This document shows positions 43,739 through 62,918 of a stretch of DNA of 64,000 nt, in pieces. The translations under genes were made by a program, and so were the position numbers. Every line of letters begins with the position of its first letter. Positions within the stretch are counted from its first letter, which is position 1. This DNA comes from Myxococcales bacterium. Lineage in GTDB: Bacteria > Myxococcota_A > Polyangia > Polyangiales > Ga0077539. The stretch is from contig JAEUKI010000009.1 in the NCBI GenBank assembly GCA_016793325.1, forward strand, positions 1 through 64,000, written 5' to 3'. Below the pieces are notes generated by a model. The model saw nothing but the letters and a program-made list of their open reading frames with translations, made no database searches and was not told the DNA's origin.

Positions 43739-45487
43739 CTAGCGATACGCGCCGCTCGCGCCCGTGAGCAGCGCGCTCAGCGCGACCGCGAGGCGATCGG
43801 CAGGCTCGGCGCAGGCGCCAGGATCGAGGGCGAGCGGGATGCGCATCGCGACCGTTCCCTCGTGAACGACCACCGTGGCGTTTGTGGCGCGCGAGAGCAT
43901 GGCGCCGTCTTCAGCGTCCGTTCCGCGGCGCGCGATCGTCGCGCGGATCGTCGTGTAGACGGGCTTGGGCCCCTCGAACGCGTGCACGATCGAGAGCTCG
44001 TGCCCGCGCACGGACCAGCCCGACACCGCGAGGTCTCCCGGACGCAGCGCCTCCGCGTGCTCTTCTGCGAACGAGCGCCACCGATCAACGTGCGCCTCGA
44101 ACATCGCCGGCGGCGCGACGCGACGAACCGCGTTGTCGAGCCTCTGCGCGAGCCCGTGCACCAACATGAGCGCGCGCTGCAGGCTCGTGGGCTGGTACAC
44201 GCCGCCCTTTCGAAGCGCGACGACGCCTTGATCCGAGACCCCAACTTCGTCGAAGAGCATCAGGGTCTCTTGCACGGACGCGTCGAGCAGCGACGTCGCC
44301 TGATTGGGATCGCGAATCGCACAGGAAAATCGCTTACGAAACGGCGCGCTGAGCGCGGGGATCTTTCCGCCGAAATCCGTCCACGCTCGCTCGGCGACGC
44401 GCAGCTCGAGCCCGAGGTCTCTGTGCGAGAGCTCTGTCACGATGCACGGGCCGAGCGAGGCGTGCGTCTCTTCGCGCACGACGGCGGCGATCGAGCCGAC
44501 ACGAAAGCGAGCCTCGCAGCGGTCGAGGTGGACCGCAGCGTCGGAGACGCCCAGTTGCCGAAGGTGCTCTCCTGCAGAGAGCCACACTTCGCGATGGCGC
44601 GCGCGGCCCACGGTGGGCGCCTCGGTCGCGAGCGAGGGCGCTTCGACGTCGACGACCGTCACGGGCGTCCGCAACACGAGGTCCGATCCCCACGAGACGA
44701 CGGCCTTCACTTCGAGCGCGTGGGTCACCGAGATGAACGGCGTCGAAAACGTCCGCACGACCTCCGGCGGAACGACAGCGCGCACGCTCGTCGACGCGCC
44801 ATCCGCGGGCGCAGACTGCGCGACGATCCACTCGCGACGATCGACCTCGAGCGGCCCCGCAGAGCTCGAGACGTTCGCCTGCTCGACCGCGACGAGGGCG
44901 AGCGTCACGCGATCGATCCTTCGATCGCCGATCCCGCTGAGGGCGACAGACGCGTCGAACGCAGCGCCGGGCACGAGCACTCCCGCGTTGGTCGACAGCT
45001 CGATGATCGGGTCTTTTCCACGCGATTCGTCGGCGTTGGAGGTCACGAGCAGCGGCCGCGGACCGAGCCTCGCGTGCGAAGGCGGGACGACGATCACGTC
45101 GTACGTCGCGTGCGCGTCCGGCCACCATGGAATCGAAACGCGCACGCTCAGCGAGTACTGAATGTGACTGAGCGCGCTGCGAAAGCTCGGCGGCGCGTCC
45201 GCGGGAATCGCGAACTGGACGTGATGCTCCGTGGTGCCCTTCTCGAGCAGCATCGCTGGCAGCCTCGCTCCGAGCTGCACCGCCGTTCGCTTGTGAAACG
45301 TACGGTGCGAGCTCTTGCCCGTGGTGACCGTGCGCTTGTAGCGACTCTCGGTTCCGACGAGGACGACATCGATGTAGTCCACCTTGGTCTGCTCGGTGCT
45401 CTCGAGCGTGAACCTCACGGCGAGCGTCTGGCCCGCGGCGATGGGTTGTGGCGTGAGATACGTGCGAATCGTGGGTCTTGCGGGCAT
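43739..45487 (-). CDS. Arrestin-like / SpoOM-type beta-sandwich protein
   Basis: 582 residues. The N-terminal half matches arrestin-like folds: LTPQPIAAGQTLAVRFTLES, DYIDVVLVGTESRYKRT, EKGTTEHHVQFAIPADAPPS, SIQYSLSVRVSIPWW. A second sandwich follows (LVPGAAFDASVALSGIGDRR, VTLALVAVEQANVSSSAG). The C-terminal ~250 residues are alpha/beta and not recognised (LLDASVQETLMLFDEVGVSD, LMLVHGLAQRLDNAVRRV). Bacterial arrestin-like proteins are rare compared with their eukaryotic counterparts; the role is unknown. Directly follows the SMP-30-like gene on the same strand (1-bp gap). Confidence 0.75.
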   Translation of the reverse strand: MPARPTIRTYLTPQPIAAGQTLAVRFTLESTEQTKVDYIDVVLVGTESRYKRTVTTGKSSHRTFHKRTAVQLGARLPAMLLEKGTTEHHVQFAIPADAPPSFRSALSHIQYSLSVRVSIPWWPDAHATYDVIVVPPSHARLGPRPLLVTSNADESRGKDPIIELSTNAGVLVPGAAFDASVALSGIGDRRIDRVTLALVAVEQANVSSSAGPLEVDRREWIVAQSAPADGASTSVRAVVPPEVVRTFSTPFISVTHALEVKAVVSWGSDLVLRTPVTVVDVEAPSLATEAPTVGRARHREVWLSAGEHLRQLGVSDAAVHLDRCEARFRVGSIAAVVREETHASLGPCIVTELSHRDLGLELRVAERAWTDFGGKIPALSAPFRKRFSCAIRDPNQATSLLDASVQETLMLFDEVGVSDQGVVALRKGGVYQPTSLQRALMLVHGLAQRLDNAVRRVAPPAMFEAHVDRWRSFAEEHAEALRPGDLAVSGWSVRGHELSIVHAFEGPKPVYTTIRATIARRGTDAEDGAMLSRATNATVVVHEGTVAMRIPLALDPGACAEPADRLAVALSALLTGASGAYR

Positions 45488-46678: not shown

Positions 46679-47359
46679 TCACCCTCGCAGGATCCGTGCG
46701 GCGATCAGCACGCCGAGCCCTGCGCTCAGCGCGCACGCGACGGTGAGCAGCGTCCGGTACGCGCGTCGAGAGCGATCCGCGACGCGGCGCAGCCCCACGC
46801 TCAACGCGGTCGTCGTCAGCGCCATGCCCGCGATCGTTCCGACACCAAAAATCAACAAGAACGCAAACGGCCCGAGCAAACGCGCGTTGGTCGCGCCGAT
46901 GATCGCGACGCCCGCCGAGCCCGCGAGCCCGTGCACCGCGCCCACGGCCACCGCGGACAGCCGCGATTTCACGGTGCTCCCGGCGGACTCGTGCGGCTCA
47001 CCATGCTCGTGATCGTGATCGTGATGGTGGTCGTGATCCTTCGCGGGATCGTCGCGACGAACACGCACGAGCCCCACGACGCCGAGCACGACGAGCATCG
47101 CGCACACCCCGAGCTCGGCGTACTTCGCGAAGCGCTCGGGGATCGTCAGCCCCGTCAGCGACAAGAGCGCGCCGACGGCAGCGAGCACCCCCGCGTGCCC
47201 GAGCCCCCAGGACGCTCCCACGAGAGACGCCCCCCGAACGCCTTGCTCGCGACGCAAGAGCGTCGCCACCGCCGCGACGTGATCGGCGTCCGCTGCGTGG
47301 CGAAGCCCGAGCAGAAAGCCCAGCCCCAACGCCAACGGAATCTCGCCACTCACCGCCAT
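46679..47359 (-). CDS. NicO/UreH-type metal transporter-like protein
   Basis: 226 residues with about six membrane helices. The first helix has GLRHAADADH, the H(x)4DH-type motif of nickel/cobalt permeases (His21, Asp26, His27). A loop at ~105-123 is a His cluster (DHDHHHDHDHEHGEPHE) typical of metal-binding segments, followed by SAVAVGAVHGLAGSAGVAI. This points to a Ni2+/Co2+ or other metal-exporting/importing permease of the inner membrane. No urease or hydrogenase gene is nearby to identify the metal. Confidence 0.85.
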   Translation of the reverse strand: MAVSGEIPLALGLGFLLGLRHAADADHVAAVATLLRREQGVRGASLVGASWGLGHAGVLAAVGALLSLTGLTIPERFAKYAELGVCAMLVVLGVVGLVRVRRDDPAKDHDHHHDHDHEHGEPHESAGSTVKSRLSAVAVGAVHGLAGSAGVAIIGATNARLLGPFAFLLIFGVGTIAGMALTTTALSVGLRRVADRSRRAYRTLLTVACALSAGLGVLIAARILRG

Positions 47360-48509: not shown

Positions 48510-49658
48510 TCACACACCGAGCAGTCGCCGCACTTGCGACTCGAGGTTCGACTCGCGCGCGATCACGCGCCCGTCGGGGCCCACGAGATAGAAGCCCGGC
48601 GTGCTCCAGCCGCCGATTTGAAAGATGTAGTTCGTCGGAACCAACGCGGTTGGATACATCGCTCCCGATCGACTGGACCAAGCGCGGCACGTCGATGCTT
48701 GAGAGCCGTCTCCCAAGAACAAGTGCACGATCTTCAAGCCCGAAGCTGCGTAGCGCGAATACAAGTTCTGAAGCATCCCGGCTTCAGTGACACAAGCGCC
48801 TCACGTGAAGCTCCCCGTCGCGACGATCGTGAGCCGCGCGCCGCACCACACGTTGTTGCGATAGTTGATGCTCGAGCCGTCGCTGCAGCGAACACCGGTG
48901 AAGTCAGGGATGCTGTTTCCCGCGCTGCGTCCGAAGGGCGCGTTGAGCGCGGGGCACATCCCCGACGGCGGAGGCATCGTCGGAACGCCCGAGTCCTGAC
49001 GAACACCGCTGTCCGTAGGCGGTGGTGGCGGGGGCGATCCTGCGCCCGAGAGGCACGCGTTGAACGCGCCGGCGGTGCACTCCATCGTCGAGAGGCACGC
49101 GACGTTGTTCGCGTAGCGCGTGTCCGTCGCGCACAGCGACTCGCACTGCGACTGCGAGAGCGGAGCGCCCCCCGAGCTGATGCGCGCGCCGCACGTCGTG
49201 TAGATGTGGTTGCACGCCGTCGCACATGAATAGGTGGGCCCCGGTGGCGGCTGCGTTGGGACGCCCGAGTCGCTCGGCGCGCTCGCGTCCATCCTCGGCA
49301 CTCCGCTGTCCGTCGGGCTCGACGGAACGCCCGCGTCGCTCGGCGCTCCGGGCCGAATCGGCACCGACAAGAAGCACCCCGTGATCGCGTCGCGCGAGCA
49401 CGCGACCTCGCTCAAGCACGTCTCGAAGCCGTCGAGCCCGCCTGCGCGACACTGCTCGACGCACTGCGATCGGCTGAGCGCACCAGACGCCGTCCCGAGC
49501 GACATGCGACAGGCGTCGTAGATCCGCCCGCACGCGCGCTCGCACAACGACTGTCCGCCGGGCGCGCGAGGAACGAACTCGCTCTCGGGTTGCGCGCACG
49601 CCCCGCTCGTCATCGCGACGAGCAAGACGACGCAGATCGCTTGCTTGGGTCTCTTCAT
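48510..49658 (-). CDS. Probable selenoprotein: 8-Cys/thioredoxin-fold lipoprotein, UGA at 48803-48801
   Basis: Reading the in-frame UGA as selenocysteine gives 382 residues. Signal with lipobox SGAC; two eight-cysteine modules (~40-100, ~145-205) with DSGVPSSP linkers; then a thioredoxin-fold domain. The motif ATGSFT-U-GAC (Sec286, Cys289) aligns with SAGWCGVC of the paralogue at 61683-62918, so U takes the place of the N-terminal redox Cys. After UGA the frame continues 96 codons: GLKIVHLFLGDGS, GWSTPGFYLVGPDGRVIARE (cis-Pro). A SECIS-like hairpin follows (48768-48787). Alternatives: a nonsense mutation (one base from TGC/TGT) or sequencing error. Predicted periplasmic or outer-membrane oxidoreductase; downstream of an FHA-sigma-54 activator gene. 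Confidence 0.75.
48768..48787 (-). other. bSECIS-like hairpin after the in-frame UGA
   Basis: In the mRNA, CUGAAGC-CGGGAU-GCUUCAG forms a perfect 7-bp stem with a 6-nt loop. The loop starts 20 nt after the UGA and has a G in its first two positions. Stem, loop size, spacing (16-37 nt) and loop G all satisfy the bacterial SECIS consensus. It lies within coding sequence, as usual for bacteria. Confidence 0.7.
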
Positions 49659-49808: not shown

Positions 49809-51242
49809 TCAGTCGCGATTGGTGAGCTTGGGTTGCGCTCTCGGCGTCGTGAGCCCGAGCTCGCTCAGGCGCGCGACCAGCGTGCGGCGAGGCATCGCGA
49901 GGTGGCGCGCGGCGCGCGATTGGTTTCCGTCGAAGCGAGAGAGCGTCTCGAGGATGCGCGAGCGCTCGAAGGCCCGAAGCTCGTCGCGCAGGGACGCGCG
50001 CTCGTGGGCGCTCGACGGCAGCGCTGGCGGCGGAGGCAACGTCGAGTACACGCTCGCGCGCTGCGCGGCTTCGAGCCCGAGATGGACGCGCTCGATCGTC
50101 GCTCCCCCCGCCAAGAGCGCGGCGCGCTCGATCACCGTGCGCAGCTCTCTCACGTTGCCCGGCCACGCGTGCGCCTCGAGCGCTTCGCGTACGCCCACGC
50201 CGAAGCTCGGCTCGCGCCCGAGCGCCCGCCGCGCGAAGTGCGTCGCGAGCAGCTCGACGTCCTCGACGCGCTCCCGCAACGAGGGAACGCGCAGCGCAAA
50301 GCCCTGGATTCGATAGAAGAGATCTCGCCGAAACAGCCCCCGCTCGACCATCTCTTCGAGCGAGCGGTGCGTCGAGGACACGATGCGCACGTCGACGGCC
50401 CTCGGCCGAATCGAGCCGAGCCGCGTGAGCTCGCCCCGCTCGAGGACGCGCAGCAATTTGGCCTGCAATCCGAGCGCGAGATCGCCGATTTCGTCGAGCG
50501 CGAGCGTCCCGCCGTGCGCCGCTTCGAAGAGCCCCGGCTTCGCCGCGACCGCCCCCGAAAACGCCCCCCGCTCGAAGCCGAACAGCTCGGCCTCGAGGAG
50601 GTTCTCTGGAAGCGCCGCGCAGTTGATCGCGACGAGGGGCCCCTTCGCGCGCGGCGATCGCTCGTGAATGGCGCGGGCGACGAGCTCTTTTCCTGTGCCT
50701 GTTTCGCCGAGGATCATCACGGCGATCGACGTCGGCGCGAGCCGATCACAGAGCGACAAGAGGCTCAGCATCGCCTGCGATCGCGCGACGATCCCCGCGG
50801 GCCCGAGCGGCGCGTCTCGATTTCGTGTGCCCTCGCTCGCCCGCAGCACGAGCACGCACTCACCTAGCGAAAACGCAGCTCCGACGCCGATCCGTCGCCG
50901 CTCTCCCTCGGCGAGGGGCGTGTGTCCCGCGACGATCGCCGCGCGGGCGCCGGGCGCGCGCTCGATCCACCAGCCCCCGTCCACGAAGCGAAGCAGCGCG
51001 TGCCGACGAGACACCGTCGGGTCGAGCAGGACCACGTCGTTGTCCCGCGACCGCCCGAGGGTGAGCAAGACCTGCCCACCTTCGGGATCCGGGAGCGCAA
51101 ACCGCCGCGCGTCGCCGTGAACGAGAACCTCGAGGGCGTACGCGCAACGGAGCGGCGCTCGCTCGTTCGCCCACGAAGCGCAAGGCGCAGTCTCGCTGTC
51201 CGAGAGCCAATCGATCGCAGTCGCGTCGCGAGGGGTGTCCAT
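49809..51242 (-). CDS. FHA-domain sigma-54-dependent activator
   Basis: From ATG 51242, 477 residues: an N-terminal FHA domain (~45-115: TLGRSRDNDVVLLDPTVSRR, HALLRFVDGGWW) that binds phosphothreonine, an AAA+ sigma-54 domain (Walker A GETGTGKE, GAFSGA in place of GAFTGA, Walker B ALDEIGD), and a Fis-type HTH (RFDGNQSRAARHLAMPRRTL). Such proteins link Ser/Thr kinases to sigma-54 promoters in myxobacteria. The start is chosen because longer forms run into the divergent lipoprotein gene. It is transcribed toward the Sec lipoprotein gene and is divergent from 51319; both have sigma-54-like upstream sites. Confidence 0.92.
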   Translation of the reverse strand: MDTPRDATAIDWLSDSETAPCASWANERAPLRCAYALEVLVHGDARRFALPDPEGGQVLLTLGRSRDNDVVLLDPTVSRRHALLRFVDGGWWIERAPGARAAIVAGHTPLAEGERRRIGVGAAFSLGECVLVLRASEGTRNRDAPLGPAGIVARSQAMLSLLSLCDRLAPTSIAVMILGETGTGKELVARAIHERSPRAKGPLVAINCAALPENLLEAELFGFERGAFSGAVAAKPGLFEAAHGGTLALDEIGDLALGLQAKLLRVLERGELTRLGSIRPRAVDVRIVSSTHRSLEEMVERGLFRRDLFYRIQGFALRVPSLRERVEDVELLATHFARRALGREPSFGVGVREALEAHAWPGNVRELRTVIERAALLAGGATIERVHLGLEAAQRASVYSTLPPPPALPSSAHERASLRDELRAFERSRILETLSRFDGNQSRAARHLAMPRRTLVARLSELGLTTPRAQPKLTNRD

Positions 51243-51288
51243 GGTCGAGCGCGCGTCGCAACGCCGATGCCAGCGCTCGATCGCTCGT

Positions 51289-51304
51289 CGGCACAGCGCG
51301 TGCT
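51289..51304 (+). promoter_or_regulatory. Candidate sigma-54 promoter upstream of 51319 lipoprotein
   Basis: CGGCACA-GCGC-GTGCT has GG-N10-GC spacing and matches 9 of 12 scored positions, including GGCAC. It would start transcription within a few nt of ATG 51319, so an almost leaderless mRNA is implied, which lowers confidence. Confidence 0.3.
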
Positions 51305-51318
51305 CAACGATCGATCCC

Positions 51319-52227
51319 ATGAACCATCGCCGCGCACTCGAACACCTCCTCCCTGGCGCGCTCTTGCTCGGCGCGCTCGCCGGCTGCGCAAACATCCCCG
51401 AAGGCCAAGCGCCCGCTCCCGCGCCGCGCCGCATGGACACTGGCGGAACGCGCTGCACCGACACCATCGGCGACGCGAGCGCCTCACACGTGTGCGTCGA
51501 GCGCGTCGTCGGCCGCGTGACCGATCAAGACGGCCGCCCCGTCACGGGCGTGCTGCTCACGCTGTGCGGAATGGGTCAGTGCCGCGACCTCGCGCCGAAC
51601 AGCAACGGCGAGTTCGACTATCGCATCGAGGCGCGCCTGAACCCTGGCGTGTTCGCGGTGCACGCCGAGGCCCCGCAGCAGCCGTACGCGCTGCTCTATG
51701 CGCAGATGCCGCAGGTTCGCGCGGGCGTCGCGACGTTCGAGTCACCCATTCGCTTGCACCGGATGAACAGCGAAGGCGCAGCGATCGTCCGCGGAATGTC
51801 CGCGGGCCAGACCGTCACCGCGGGCGACGTGACCCTCACGATCCCGCGCGGCGCGATGATCCTCCCGTCGCTCGCTGACGAAGAGCGGACGCTTGAGTTT
51901 CGCTCGGTCGGCGTCGCGATGTACCAGTCGCCCGCGTTCGCGCAGGGCGCGTCGATGAGCGCGCTGTACGCGCTCGCGCCAACCGCGCTGACGAGCACGA
52001 TGTCGATGCGCGTTCGCGTTCGAAACCGCGCGGAGCTCGCCGCGGGACAGCGCGTCGAGTTCGTCACCATGGGCACGGATATCGAGGCCGACCGCTTCGA
52101 CGCAGGCTCGCTCATCGTGCTCGGGCTCGGGCGGGTCACTGCAGACGGGCAGTTCATCGAGAGCGACGAGGGCGTCGGCGTTCGAGAGCTGCACTGGGTG
52201 GGCGTCCGCGTGAAGCGCGCGCTGTGA
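51319..52227 (+). CDS. Lipoprotein with carboxypeptidase-regulatory-like domain
   Basis: 302 residues; signal with LLLGALAGC lipobox. Residues ~50-150 (VVGRVTDQDGRPVTGVLLTLC, ...SNGEFDYRIEARLNPGVFAV) follow the pattern of CarboxypepD_reg/Ig-like beta-sandwich domains found in surface proteins. Residues ~155-302 (AGDVTLTIPRGAMILPSLAD, LIVLGLGRVTADGQFIESD) are beta-rich with a repeated IPRGA-type segment. No catalytic residues. Its stop overlaps a GTG start frame of the CAP-domain gene (GTGA at 52224), so they form an operon. Confidence 0.75.
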   Translation: MNHRRALEHLLPGALLLGALAGCANIPEGQAPAPAPRRMDTGGTRCTDTIGDASASHVCVERVVGRVTDQDGRPVTGVLLTLCGMGQCRDLAPNSNGEFDYRIEARLNPGVFAVHAEAPQQPYALLYAQMPQVRAGVATFESPIRLHRMNSEGAAIVRGMSAGQTVTAGDVTLTIPRGAMILPSLADEERTLEFRSVGVAMYQSPAFAQGASMSALYALAPTALTSTMSMRVRVRNRAELAAGQRVEFVTMGTDIEADRFDAGSLIVLGLGRVTADGQFIESDEGVGVRELHWVGVRVKRAL

Positions 52228-52238
52228 GAGAGGCCATC

Positions 52239-53231
52239 ATGAAAACAGTCACGTATATTCGACACAGCTTGCTTTTCGTCATTCCGATCATCGCAGCGGC
52301 GTGCGGCCCCGAGATGGTCACAGCGCCCTCGAACCCGCGCGAACCGATGGACTTCATCCCGATTCCGTCGGGCCCTTCGACGCCGGGCGACCCCGTGATG
52401 ATCCCGACGGACTCGGGCGTTGGCGACACGGGGATCGCCACCGGGGGACCACCCGCGATCGACGCGTCCGCGCCGGACGTTCGCAGCCCACCGCCACCGC
52501 CGACGGACAGCGGCGTCGCTCCGCCCATGATGATGCCGCCGTCTGGAGCGACGACCTGCGAGCGCGCGTGCCAGCACGTCTACCGCGACTGCATGTTGGG
52601 CTTTCGCTCGTCCTCGGGCGCGACGCTCACCGAGTCGCAGTGCGTTTCCGCGTGCGCCGCGGGGCAATTCGGCGGCGCAGAGTCGTGCCTCGCGACGGCA
52701 CCGTGCGGCGCGGCCTCTCTCAACGCGTGCTTCTCGTCGAGCCCGCCGAGCACGCCGGACGCATCGCCCCCGACGGACGCTTCTGGTGGGACGCCTCCGC
52801 CATCTTCGGGGGCCACGGCGCTCGAAGACGAGGTGCTCGCGCTCACCAACGCTCGCCGCGCCGCCGGCGCAAACTGCGGTGGAACGATGTTCGGCCCGGC
52901 CCCGCCGCTGCGCATGAACGAGACCCTCCGCGGCGTCGCGCGCGCGCACAGCACGGACATGGGAACGCGAAACTACTTCGCTCACAACAGCCTCGATGGC
53001 CGCACACCTTTTCAACGCATGATGGCCGCCGGCTACTCGAGCTCGCCGATGGGCGAGAACATCGCCGCGGGCAACGGCACCGCGGCCGCGACGGTCACGC
53101 AGTGGATGAACAGCCCCGGCCACTGCCGCAACATCATGAACCCGTCGTATCGCGCGCTCGGCGTCGGCTACGCCAACGTTGCCTCTTCGATGTACCGCCA
53201 CTATTGGACGCAGAACTTCGGGGGCATGTGA
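52239..53231 (+). CDS. Lipoprotein with 8-Cys module and CAP (SCP) domain
   Basis: 330 residues from ATG 52239 (GAGAGAGG upstream); GTG 52224 overlapping the previous stop is possible. Signal with FVIPIIAAAC lipobox, Pro/Ser/Asp linkers, one eight-cysteine module (~105-165: CERACQHVYRDC...SQCVSAC...CLATAPC...CF), a second linker, then a CAP domain (~200-330). CAP signatures: LTNARRAAG, MNETLRGVARAHSTDM, NYFAHNSLDGRTPFQRMMAA, MGENIAAGN, WMNSPGHCRNIMNPSYRALG. The His and Glu cavity residues are present. CAP proteins are secreted and vary in role. The module links it to the two thioredoxin-fold lipoproteins. Confidence 0.85.
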   Translation: MKTVTYIRHSLLFVIPIIAAACGPEMVTAPSNPREPMDFIPIPSGPSTPGDPVMIPTDSGVGDTGIATGGPPAIDASAPDVRSPPPPPTDSGVAPPMMMPPSGATTCERACQHVYRDCMLGFRSSSGATLTESQCVSACAAGQFGGAESCLATAPCGAASLNACFSSSPPSTPDASPPTDASGGTPPPSSGATALEDEVLALTNARRAAGANCGGTMFGPAPPLRMNETLRGVARAHSTDMGTRNYFAHNSLDGRTPFQRMMAAGYSSSPMGENIAAGNGTAAATVTQWMNSPGHCRNIMNPSYRALGVGYANVASSMYRHYWTQNFGGM

Positions 53232-61682: not shown

Positions 61683-62918
61683 TCATCCGCCGCTGAGAAT
61701 CGAGTCGAGCACGGATCGCACTTGCGTGACGGAGATGCCCGAGGTGTGGTGACGAATGCGTCCGGTGCGATCGAGCACGGTCACCGCAGGAACGCCGCTG
61801 ATCGTCACCGCGCGAAGCCAGTCGCGCGACGGATCGACCACCGTCGTGCTCGTGAGCGAATAGCGCGAGTGCCACGTGTTGGCGTAGGCGACCGTGCCCG
61901 GGGAGCGGTCGGGGTTCTCGATCACGAGGGTCAGCACGCGAACGCCACGCGCGCGATACGCCGCGGTGATGTCGCGCTCGATCGTCGGAGCCTCGCGCTG
62001 ACACACGCCGCACCAGCCCGCAGAGACGATCACGACCGTCGCGCTCGCCGCGCAATAGGCAGGGCCGTACAGCGCATGCGAGGCGCCGTCGATCGCCGTA
62101 AACGTCGTCGGCCTCGCGAAGCACCCGACGCTCGTGCAGAAGCCCGTGGTCGGCGGCGAGCACGACGTCATCGGCGCCCCCGAATCCGCCGAGGGAACGC
62201 CCGCGTCCGCCGGCGGCGGCGGTGGCGGACTCGATCCGCCGCTTCCCATCAAGCACGCGTAGAACGCGTCCATCGTGCACGCCATCGTGCTCAGGCACGC
62301 CGCGTTGCTTCGATAGTTGTTCGTCGCAGCGCAGTGGGCCTCGCACTGCGCGCGCGTGAGCGAGGTCCCCGACTGCGAGAGAACAACGCGACAATCGTCG
62401 TAGATGTGCCCACACGCGGTCGCGCACGAGTACGTCGACGGCGGCGACGAGGGCACGCCCGAGTCGGACACCGGCGGCGGCGACCCCGCGTCCACCGGTG
62501 GAACCTGCGCGTCGATCGGCGAGCTCGGCGCGCTGCCGCTGTCGCTCGGCGCTCCGCCGTCTTGCGCGATGGGAATCGCTGAGAAACACCCAACGATCGC
62601 GTCGGTCGTGCACTGCACGTCGCCGAGGCACCGCGCCGCGCCCGAAAACGCCCCCGCGTTGCACTCGCTCACGCACTGCGAGCGCGAGAGCACACCCGCG
62701 CCGTTCGAGAGCGATCGACGACACGTGTCGTAGACCCGCGCGCACGCACGCTCGCAAATCGAGCCTCCCATCGCGCTCGACGAGGCGTCATCCGCCCCCG
62801 TGTCCGCGACCGCGGGCGGGCGTCGTCGAAGCACGAGCTCATCAGCGTCGGTCTGCGCGCACGCCCCCACGAGCAGAGCAGCCGCGAACGAGGCAATCAT
62901 CGGGATCGTACGGGTCAT
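61683..62918 (-). CDS. 8-Cys/thioredoxin-fold lipoprotein (CGVC)
   Basis: 411 residues from ATG 62918, with GGAGGA 8 nt upstream. Signal with ALLVGAC lipobox; two eight-cysteine modules (CERACARVYDTC... and CATACGHIYDDC...), linkers with DSGVPSSP, then a thioredoxin-fold domain. Landmarks are VVIVSAGWCGVCQREAP (redox Cys pair CGVC), VLTLVIENPDRS, and AVTISGVPAVTVLDRTGRI with the cis-Pro (GVP). It matches TlpA/AhpC-type redoxins. It is the cysteine paralogue of the selenoprotein candidate at 48510-49658. A good sigma-54-like promoter lies upstream, and an FHA-sigma-54 activator is next on the same strand. Confidence 0.88.
   Translation of the reverse strand: MTRTIPMIASFAAALLVGACAQTDADELVLRRRPPAVADTGADDASSSAMGGSICERACARVYDTCRRSLSNGAGVLSRSQCVSECNAGAFSGAARCLGDVQCTTDAIVGCFSAIPIAQDGGAPSDSGSAPSSPIDAQVPPVDAGSPPPVSDSGVPSSPPSTYSCATACGHIYDDCRVVLSQSGTSLTRAQCEAHCAATNNYRSNAACLSTMACTMDAFYACLMGSGGSSPPPPPPADAGVPSADSGAPMTSCSPPTTGFCTSVGCFARPTTFTAIDGASHALYGPAYCAASATVVIVSAGWCGVCQREAPTIERDITAAYRARGVRVLTLVIENPDRSPGTVAYANTWHSRYSLTSTTVVDPSRDWLRAVTISGVPAVTVLDRTGRIRHHTSGISVTQVRSVLDSILSGG

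Follow-up and report, generated by a model that had tools for sequence, protein, structure and literature searches.

A predicted selenocysteine-containing, ResA-like redoxin with tandem eight-cysteine modules in a Myxococcales genome

A gene on the reverse strand of contig JAEUKI010000009.1 of a Myxococcales bacterium very probably codes for a selenoprotein, with an in-frame UGA, located at the position of the first redox Cys of a thioredoxin-fold domain, read as selenocysteine (Sec) by the SelA, SelB, SelC and SelD of the same genome. The gene lies in a stretch of 64,000 nucleotides (positions 1 to 64,000 of the contig, hereafter the window), and the corresponding assembly comprises 10.38 Mb in 95 contigs and is 93.7% complete. 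The assignment was made by comparison of sequences, and the features on which it draws are collected in Table 1.

Table 1. Coordinates of the predicted selenoprotein gene, its elements and related genes in the window
Feature	Position	Strand	Basis or remark
Predicted selenoprotein gene, full length	48510..49658	-	382 residues, Sec at residue 286; terminal TGA 48512-48510
Signal peptide with lipobox-like TSGAC ending at C21	49596..49658	-	PS00013-like pattern; lipid anchor predicted
First 8-Cys module, residues 37-98	49365..49550	-	8 Cys counted; home-made module HMM
Second 8-Cys module, residues 143-205	49044..49232	-	8 Cys counted; module HMM
Redoxin (thioredoxin-fold) domain, ResA-like, residues 246-369	48552..48923	-	Pfam PF08534, AlphaFold2 model, Foldseek
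In-frame UGA, predicted Sec286 (U of U-G-A-C)	48801..48803	-	Frame, orthologue alignment, U column
Cys289, second redox residue of UxxC	48792..48794	-	Invariant in the 14-row domain alignment A2
Predicted bacterial SECIS hairpin CUGAAGC (CGGGAU) GCUUCAG	48768..48787	-	7 bp; loop 48780-48775, 20 nt past the UGA
Glu292 (CxxE)	48783..48785	-	Invariant in A2; profile-aligned with the ResA Glu
Pro354, predicted cis-Pro before strand 355-359	48597..48599	-	AlphaFold2 model
FHA/sigma-54 interaction regulator	49809..51467	-	Directly upstream of the Sec gene
CAP-domain protein, one 8-Cys module	52224..53231	+	Module HMM; counterparts close to the G001 and G002 orthologues
Cys paralogue, two 8-Cys modules, SAGWCGVC	61683..62918	-	Frame reading; module HMM

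The frame of this gene runs for 285 residues, through a signal peptide, two 8-Cys modules and the start of the redoxin domain, before it meets the TGA. It then continues with GACVTEAG and 88 further residues, giving 96 codons between the UGA and a second TGA. An earlier, sequence-only reading of the window had proposed exactly this frame, and it was recovered as described. The cis-Pro motif that this reading placed in the downstream part, GWSTPGFYLVG, is present there, and its assignment of the UGA to the first redox Cys, with the second retained, agrees with the Cys paralogue, which reads SAGWCGVC at the aligned place. It had also anticipated that gene finders would split the gene. A protein search of the databases returned seven homologues of 285-303 aa (five named "hypothetical protein" and two without a name), all of which end right after ATGSFT; 88-aa downstream pieces are present as separate entries (five matches, one of them the window's own).

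Such truncated entries, with the 88-aa downstream open reading frame listed apart, are also what would be seen if the UGA were a genuine stop, which would leave a 285-aa 8-Cys lipoprotein and a remainder that is either decaying or separately translated. The pattern of conservation makes this very unlikely. Full-length orthologues were found in 4 of 57 genomes of the organism's own order, with identities of 100% (own genome, G000), 78% (G002), 69% (G001) and 65% (G006). In a sample of 377 genomes from the phylum, into which G001 was not drawn, orthologues were confined to the organism's own family (G000, G002 and G006). Each full orthologue has exactly one TGA, which occupies the same column in all four aligned sequences, and the frame and downstream residues are kept in every case; no orthologue with a true stop at the UGA position was found. 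The DNA of G002 and G006 is that of L026 (LNEO01000352.1) and L027 (JAUXYJ010000074.1), respectively, so these were not counted twice; judged by sequence, P0005 represents the annotated protein of L026 and P0010 that of L027. Downstream of the UGA, dN/dS ranged from 0.166 to 0.362 in all six orthologue pairs (Nei-Gojobori), and over the 60 codons before it from 0.068 to 0.230 in five pairs, dS being saturated in the sixth. These values indicate that the 96 codons past the UGA are under purifying selection. A conserved UGA followed by coding constraint, one of the marks of a bacterial selenoprotein, was observed in 4/4 orthologues, and in the structural model the redoxin fold extends from one side of the codon to the other. 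A sequencing or assembly error is of negligible probability: a single substitution converts either Cys codon (TGC or TGT) to TGA, but the same TGA is found in separately assembled genomes, e.g. LNEO01000352 and JAUXYJ010000074.

The identity of the residue at this position was followed across the domain family. A profile derived from a 14-row alignment of the domain (A2) was run over the fetched loci and yielded 44 distinct rows. If the UGA replaces a redox Cys, relatives should carry Cys there, and this is what was found: the U column contains Cys in 34 rows, TGA in 9 and Asn (AAC) in 1. Neither TAA nor TAG was observed in this column, either in the 44 rows or among the matches listed from 183 genomes, which again argues against a genuine stop. 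Alignment of the UGA with Cys in homologues that lack Sec is a further mark of bacterial selenoproteins. Distant Cys relatives include two from metagenome-assembled genomes named Myxococcota and Sandaracinaceae. The Asn row, L042 (G012:C279), reads AAWNVPS, Asn and Ser replacing both redox cysteines, and is probably a redox-dead form.

The dependence of the proposal on a Sec-decoding apparatus led to a result in its favor, as selA, selB, selC and selD counterparts were all found in the genome that carries the window. Scores were 510 bits for SelA (cut-off 268), 339 bits for SelB (cut-off 242), 378 bits for SelD (cut-off 125) and 61.2 bits for tRNA-Sec (cut-off 47), for which ARAGORN gave the anticodon UCA. 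The presence of all four is itself characteristic of genomes that encode bacterial selenoproteins. The SelD of this genome is interrupted by a UGA of its own (HGAG-UGA-ACK). When the same searches were applied to 14 control genomes, the cut-off was exceeded for tRNA-Sec in five, SelB in two, SelA in one and SelD in two. The bit score of tRNA-Sec alone is therefore unspecific, and given these control rates the SelA, SelB and SelD protein matches carry most weight. All four orthologue-bearing genomes have tRNA-Sec at ≥59 bits and SelA over the cut-off. Among genomes with the related subfamily B (see below), no SelA match was obtained in G007, an assembly of 1850 contigs, and in G008, which is 76% complete, no tRNA-Sec exceeded the cut-off and the SelA match was partial and below it.

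Decoding of UGA as another amino acid, such as Trp, or by leaky readthrough was considered as an alternative, since a near-cognate tRNA would equally preserve the frame. This is most improbable. The codon is not reassigned, because 34 other genes of the window (from a heuristic gene list) end in TGA. In addition, relatives carry Cys at this position, the genome provides Sec machinery, a SECIS-type hairpin follows the codon, and the SelD frame of this genome is itself interrupted by UGA. Insertion of Sec thus remains the preferred interpretation of the codon.

The predicted SECIS hairpin is separated from the UGA by 13 nt. According to the bacterial SECIS model given in the accessible part of a 2026 review, a G falls within the first two loop nucleotides and the loop lies 16-37 nt after the UGA (PMC13188914); the window hairpin, with loop CGGGAU at 20 nt, is within these limits. 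Its sequence is the same in three subfamily-A orthologues, and the fourth has the loop CGUGCA. A stem was scored where perfect pairing extended over ≥6 bp, with a loop of 4-8 nt and a start 13-30 nt past the codon. Such a stem follows the site in 9/9 TGA rows versus 2/34 Cys rows (Fisher p 9.8e-8), the rows being non-independent in that the nine TGA rows represent about four lineages. The loops of all nine UGA rows begin C-G-G/U-G, and this loop is absent from both of the Cys rows that have a stem of ≥6 bp. Over the 43 rows with either UGA or Cys, a strong hairpin with a C-G-G/U-G loop is found only after UGA. A shorter hairpin, GAGC(CGGGT)GCTC, with a stem of 4 bp, occupies the SECIS place in the Cys row L085 (G019:C461) and may be left over from a UGA that once stood there.

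The background frequency of such structures was assessed within the window. Among the 1150 TGA trinucleotides on both strands, 79 precede a stem of ≥6 bp, as does 1 of the 34 gene-terminal TGAs. The combination of this stem with a CGKG loop at +18 to +21 occurs at one of the 1150, namely the in-frame UGA of the Sec gene, the CGKG motif having been defined after the UGA set, window gene included, had been viewed. Codon usage in the hairpin is constrained as well: the codons ACT, GAA, GCC, CTT and CAG are identical in 4/4 orthologues (5/5 invariant degenerate columns), compared with 57/186 of the other invariant degenerate columns, which gives a chance of about 0.003. Three of these codons are used by the window gene solely in the hairpin (ACT, 1 of 25 Thr; CTT, 1 of 24 Leu; GAA, 1 of 11 Glu). 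Between subfamily A and subfamilies B and C, three of six stem pairs are changed on both sides with pairing kept and the C-G-G/U-G loop constant. As the stem is invariant within subfamily A, covariation support comes from the comparison with B, C and D, and the pair changes were taken from loop-anchored positions because a MAFFT alignment of the nine UGA hairpins misplaces stems where loops differ by one base. The 47 nt past the UGA fold into the hairpin; for a 63-nt stretch that includes the UGA, the minimum-energy fold differs from it (z -1.76, 10 of 200 shuffles being equally stable). No Rfam family reached its gathering score in the window.

The profile search of 183 genomes of the order gave at least nine rows with one TGA. 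These form four groups: A (G000, G001, G002 and G006), which contains the window gene, B (G007 and G008), C (G000:C35 and G002:C212) and D (G018:C84). In groups B, C and D too, the TGA is located on the first redox Cys. Group B consists of L051 and L077, with the motif ISLAAGW-UGA-GTC. The metagenome proteins P0094-P0098 are database fragments that end at ISLAAGW, the group-B break point, and P0088, P0089, P0091 and P0092 are the matching C-terminal pieces. Group C provides a second UGA redoxin in the window's own genome, L094 (G000:C35:85112-85564, minus strand), which reads AAGW-UGA-TRC and has a lipobox-like start (by eye) and a hairpin with a CGGGC loop but is without 8-Cys modules; its orthologue in G002 is L095. 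Group D, from another family of the order, is represented by L096 (G018:C84:6748-7161), which reads SAMW-UGA-TSC and is followed by a 7-bp hairpin with loop CGUGC. Among the matches listed for the phylum sample, 16 further weak, partial rows (E 8e-7 to 7e-4) have one TGA, examples in other families being G383:C149:3595-3843 and G325:C21:61798-62277. These candidate selenoproteins suggest that UGA redoxins may spread beyond the four groups.

In a tree of the 44 rows, subfamily A formed one group (100/98), and B and C grouped with three Cys rows, including the window's paralogue (97/93). The UGA and Cys labels on this tree need four changes. A single origin of all Sec rows was rejected, as a tree that held the UGA rows together gave p-AU 0.007. 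The number of Sec/Cys exchange events is nevertheless unsure on account of long branches (L096 and L093). A much broader scheme can be envisaged, in which at least four exported Sec-redoxin lineages use one interchangeable SECIS type (loop C-G-G/U-G) and have swapped Sec and Cys repeatedly, and in which the UGA of the window lineage acts as a selenium-gated switch, yielding a bare but fully folded tandem 8-Cys surface protein without selenium and adding the redox domain when selenium is available. Taken as a whole, this scheme is speculative and we consider it unlikely to hold.

The protein was modeled with AlphaFold2 from a 50-row alignment, with U modeled as C. The redox domain was predicted with a pLDDT of ∼94, and U286 was placed after strand 276-282, just before helix 287-306. 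The best match to this model in the PDB (Foldseek) was the soluble domain of ResA (1su9), with E 3e-8 and a TM score of 0.77 by target length. Sequence-profile matches were to the thioredoxin-family protein 3kcm (best), ResA, StoA and DsbE. The Pfam domain PF08534, which spans the UGA, scored just over its cut-off (27.7 versus 26.6 bits, U read as C). For the window protein (P0003), the NCBIfam ResA model NF002854 gave 13.7 bits against a cut-off of 170 (E 0.042); the other matches with E up to 1 were to deiodinase-related (E 0.16) and mutase (E 0.4) models, all far under their cut-offs. No NCBIfam family was obtained for P0005, nor for the group-B pieces P0094 and P0088. The domain is predicted to work like ResA, though it is not filed in the ResA family.

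Given the ResA-like fold, the profile matches and the CxxE glutamate, thiol-disulfide exchange is the likely chemistry, and the most likely activity would be extracytoplasmic thiol-disulfide reduction or isomerization with Sec as the attacking residue. A Sec-dependent peroxidase of the peroxiredoxin type, rather than a disulfide reductase, was also considered, since the Pfam domain bears the name Redoxin, AhpC-TSA matched below its cut-off and peroxiredoxin chains are among the Foldseek matches. The peroxiredoxin catalytic motif is PxxxT/SxxC. Here, the corresponding stretch is V279-ATG-S-FT-U286, in which Ser is present but Pro is absent, V279 being at -7. Moreover, ResA, StoA, DsbE and thioredoxin-family oxidoreductases rank highest among the matches by structure and by profile, and both UxxC and CxxE are retained. 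A peroxidase is therefore unlikely, though it keeps a small share of the probability.

For the preferred disulfide reductase or isomerase, the following mechanism is proposed. SelB, loaded with Sec-tRNA, would recognize the hairpin whose CGGGAU loop lies 20 nt past the UGA, and insert Sec286. The protein would then be exported and, in some members, probably lipid-anchored at C21, the redox domain being kept off the membrane by the two helical, disulfide-rich modules. Sec286 would be the residue that attacks disulfide substrates, with C289 resolving the mixed selenylsulfide and Glu292 and Pro354 in ResA-like places. Candidate substrates are the disulfides of 8-Cys modules, either the protein's own or those of the neighboring CAP-domain protein, as a related module is present in the latter and in its counterparts near the orthologues.

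The N-termini were examined with a PS00013-like lipobox pattern. A canonical lipobox was found in four of eight subfamily-A N-termini (P0003, P0004, P0005 and P0008); in P0006, P0007, P0009 and P0010, His precedes the invariant Cys. C21 is invariant in a nine-row alignment. The designation of the gene product as a lipoprotein in the sequence-only reading thus calls for reserve; membrane anchoring is a prediction that may fail for some members. The 8-Cys modules were modeled as helices at low confidence (pLDDT about 50-70).

The Cys paralogue resembles the Sec gene in having a signal peptide, two 8-Cys modules and a redoxin domain, and differs in having SAGWCGVC where the Sec gene has UGAC. The 8-Cys modules are common to both genes, but the redox domain of the paralogue groups with B and C and not with A, and these mixed affinities suggest domain exchange. 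A match of the paralogue to the Pfam family Toxin_13 (E 0.013, 16.1 bits, below the cut-off of 21) was dismissed as chance.

As for the gene neighborhood, the gene immediately upstream of the orthologue in L097 (G001) and L027 (G006) is related to the FHA/sigma-54 regulator; in L026 (G002) the upstream region gave a partial match. On the other side of the Sec gene, window positions 43739-45487 (reverse strand) match arrestin N- and C-domains over the Pfam cut-offs. Beside this arrestin-like gene lie a gene resembling SMP-30 and a NicO-like transporter rich in His. The downstream run of NicO-like, SMP-30-like and arrestin-like genes is matched in L026 and not in L027 or L097. The NicO-like gene (46679-47359) was considered as an electron donor of the CcdA/DsbD type and rejected, as it is without such a Cys pair (by eye).

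This analysis adds a well-supported predicted selenoprotein family whose members are split or truncated by annotation pipelines, and it places Sec in a predicted exported, disulfide-rich protein of a probable myxobacterial branch. Within one domain family, members with UGA and members with Cys coexist in the same genomes, and in the 43 rows compared the strong C-G-G/U-G hairpin is found only after UGA, so both the exchange of Cys and Sec and the RNA requirement are directly testable. Deltaproteobacteria as a whole are described as selenoprotein-rich in the accessible text of one study (PMC5029168). A literature search found no paper on Myxococcota selenoproteins and nothing on selenocysteine in Sandaracin- taxa, although supplements of large-scale predictors may flag the gene. 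The terms "lipoprotein" and "Myxococc" are absent from the accessible text of the selenoprotein review (PMC13188914).

In its accessible part, that review counts 119 prokaryotic selenoprotein families or subfamilies, including a "Redoxin family protein" (PF08534, UxxC; Table 1 of PMC13188914), which is probably the "Prx-like 3" (pfam08534, UxxC) of the GOS survey (PMC2398784). The Sec "Redoxin family protein" and the window protein both have a redoxin domain with Sec first in UxxC. Unlike the window protein, the listed proteins are described in the accessible parts of these sources without 8-Cys modules, lipobox or a named myxobacterial host, the comparison with this class, whose representative is HEU0032618.1, covering the domain and the UxxC motif, which agree (PMC13188914, PMC2398784). 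The sequence-only reading had known of no selenoprotein that combines lipobox, 8-Cys modules and redoxin; no such form appears in Table 1 of the review as accessible, and UxxC Sec redoxins as such are already listed there (PMC13188914). What appears to be new is thus the fusion of tandem 8-Cys modules to a ResA-like Sec domain, the class of Sec redoxins being already known. Sec in a TlpA/ResA-like protein is also a feature of the UGC-containing TlpA disulfide reductase family (PMC13188914, Table 1, in its accessible part; NCBIfam WAxxUGC_long, NF041054), in which, however, Sec belongs to a UGC motif rather than to UxxC, and NF041054 was not among the NCBIfam matches of P0003. With the Cys-containing ResA, TlpA and DsbE (CcmG), the window protein shares the fold, the CxxC position, the CxxE glutamate, the Pro before a strand and predicted export; it differs from them in having Sec in place of the first Cys, the sequence GSFTU without a preceding Trp, and tandem 8-Cys modules.
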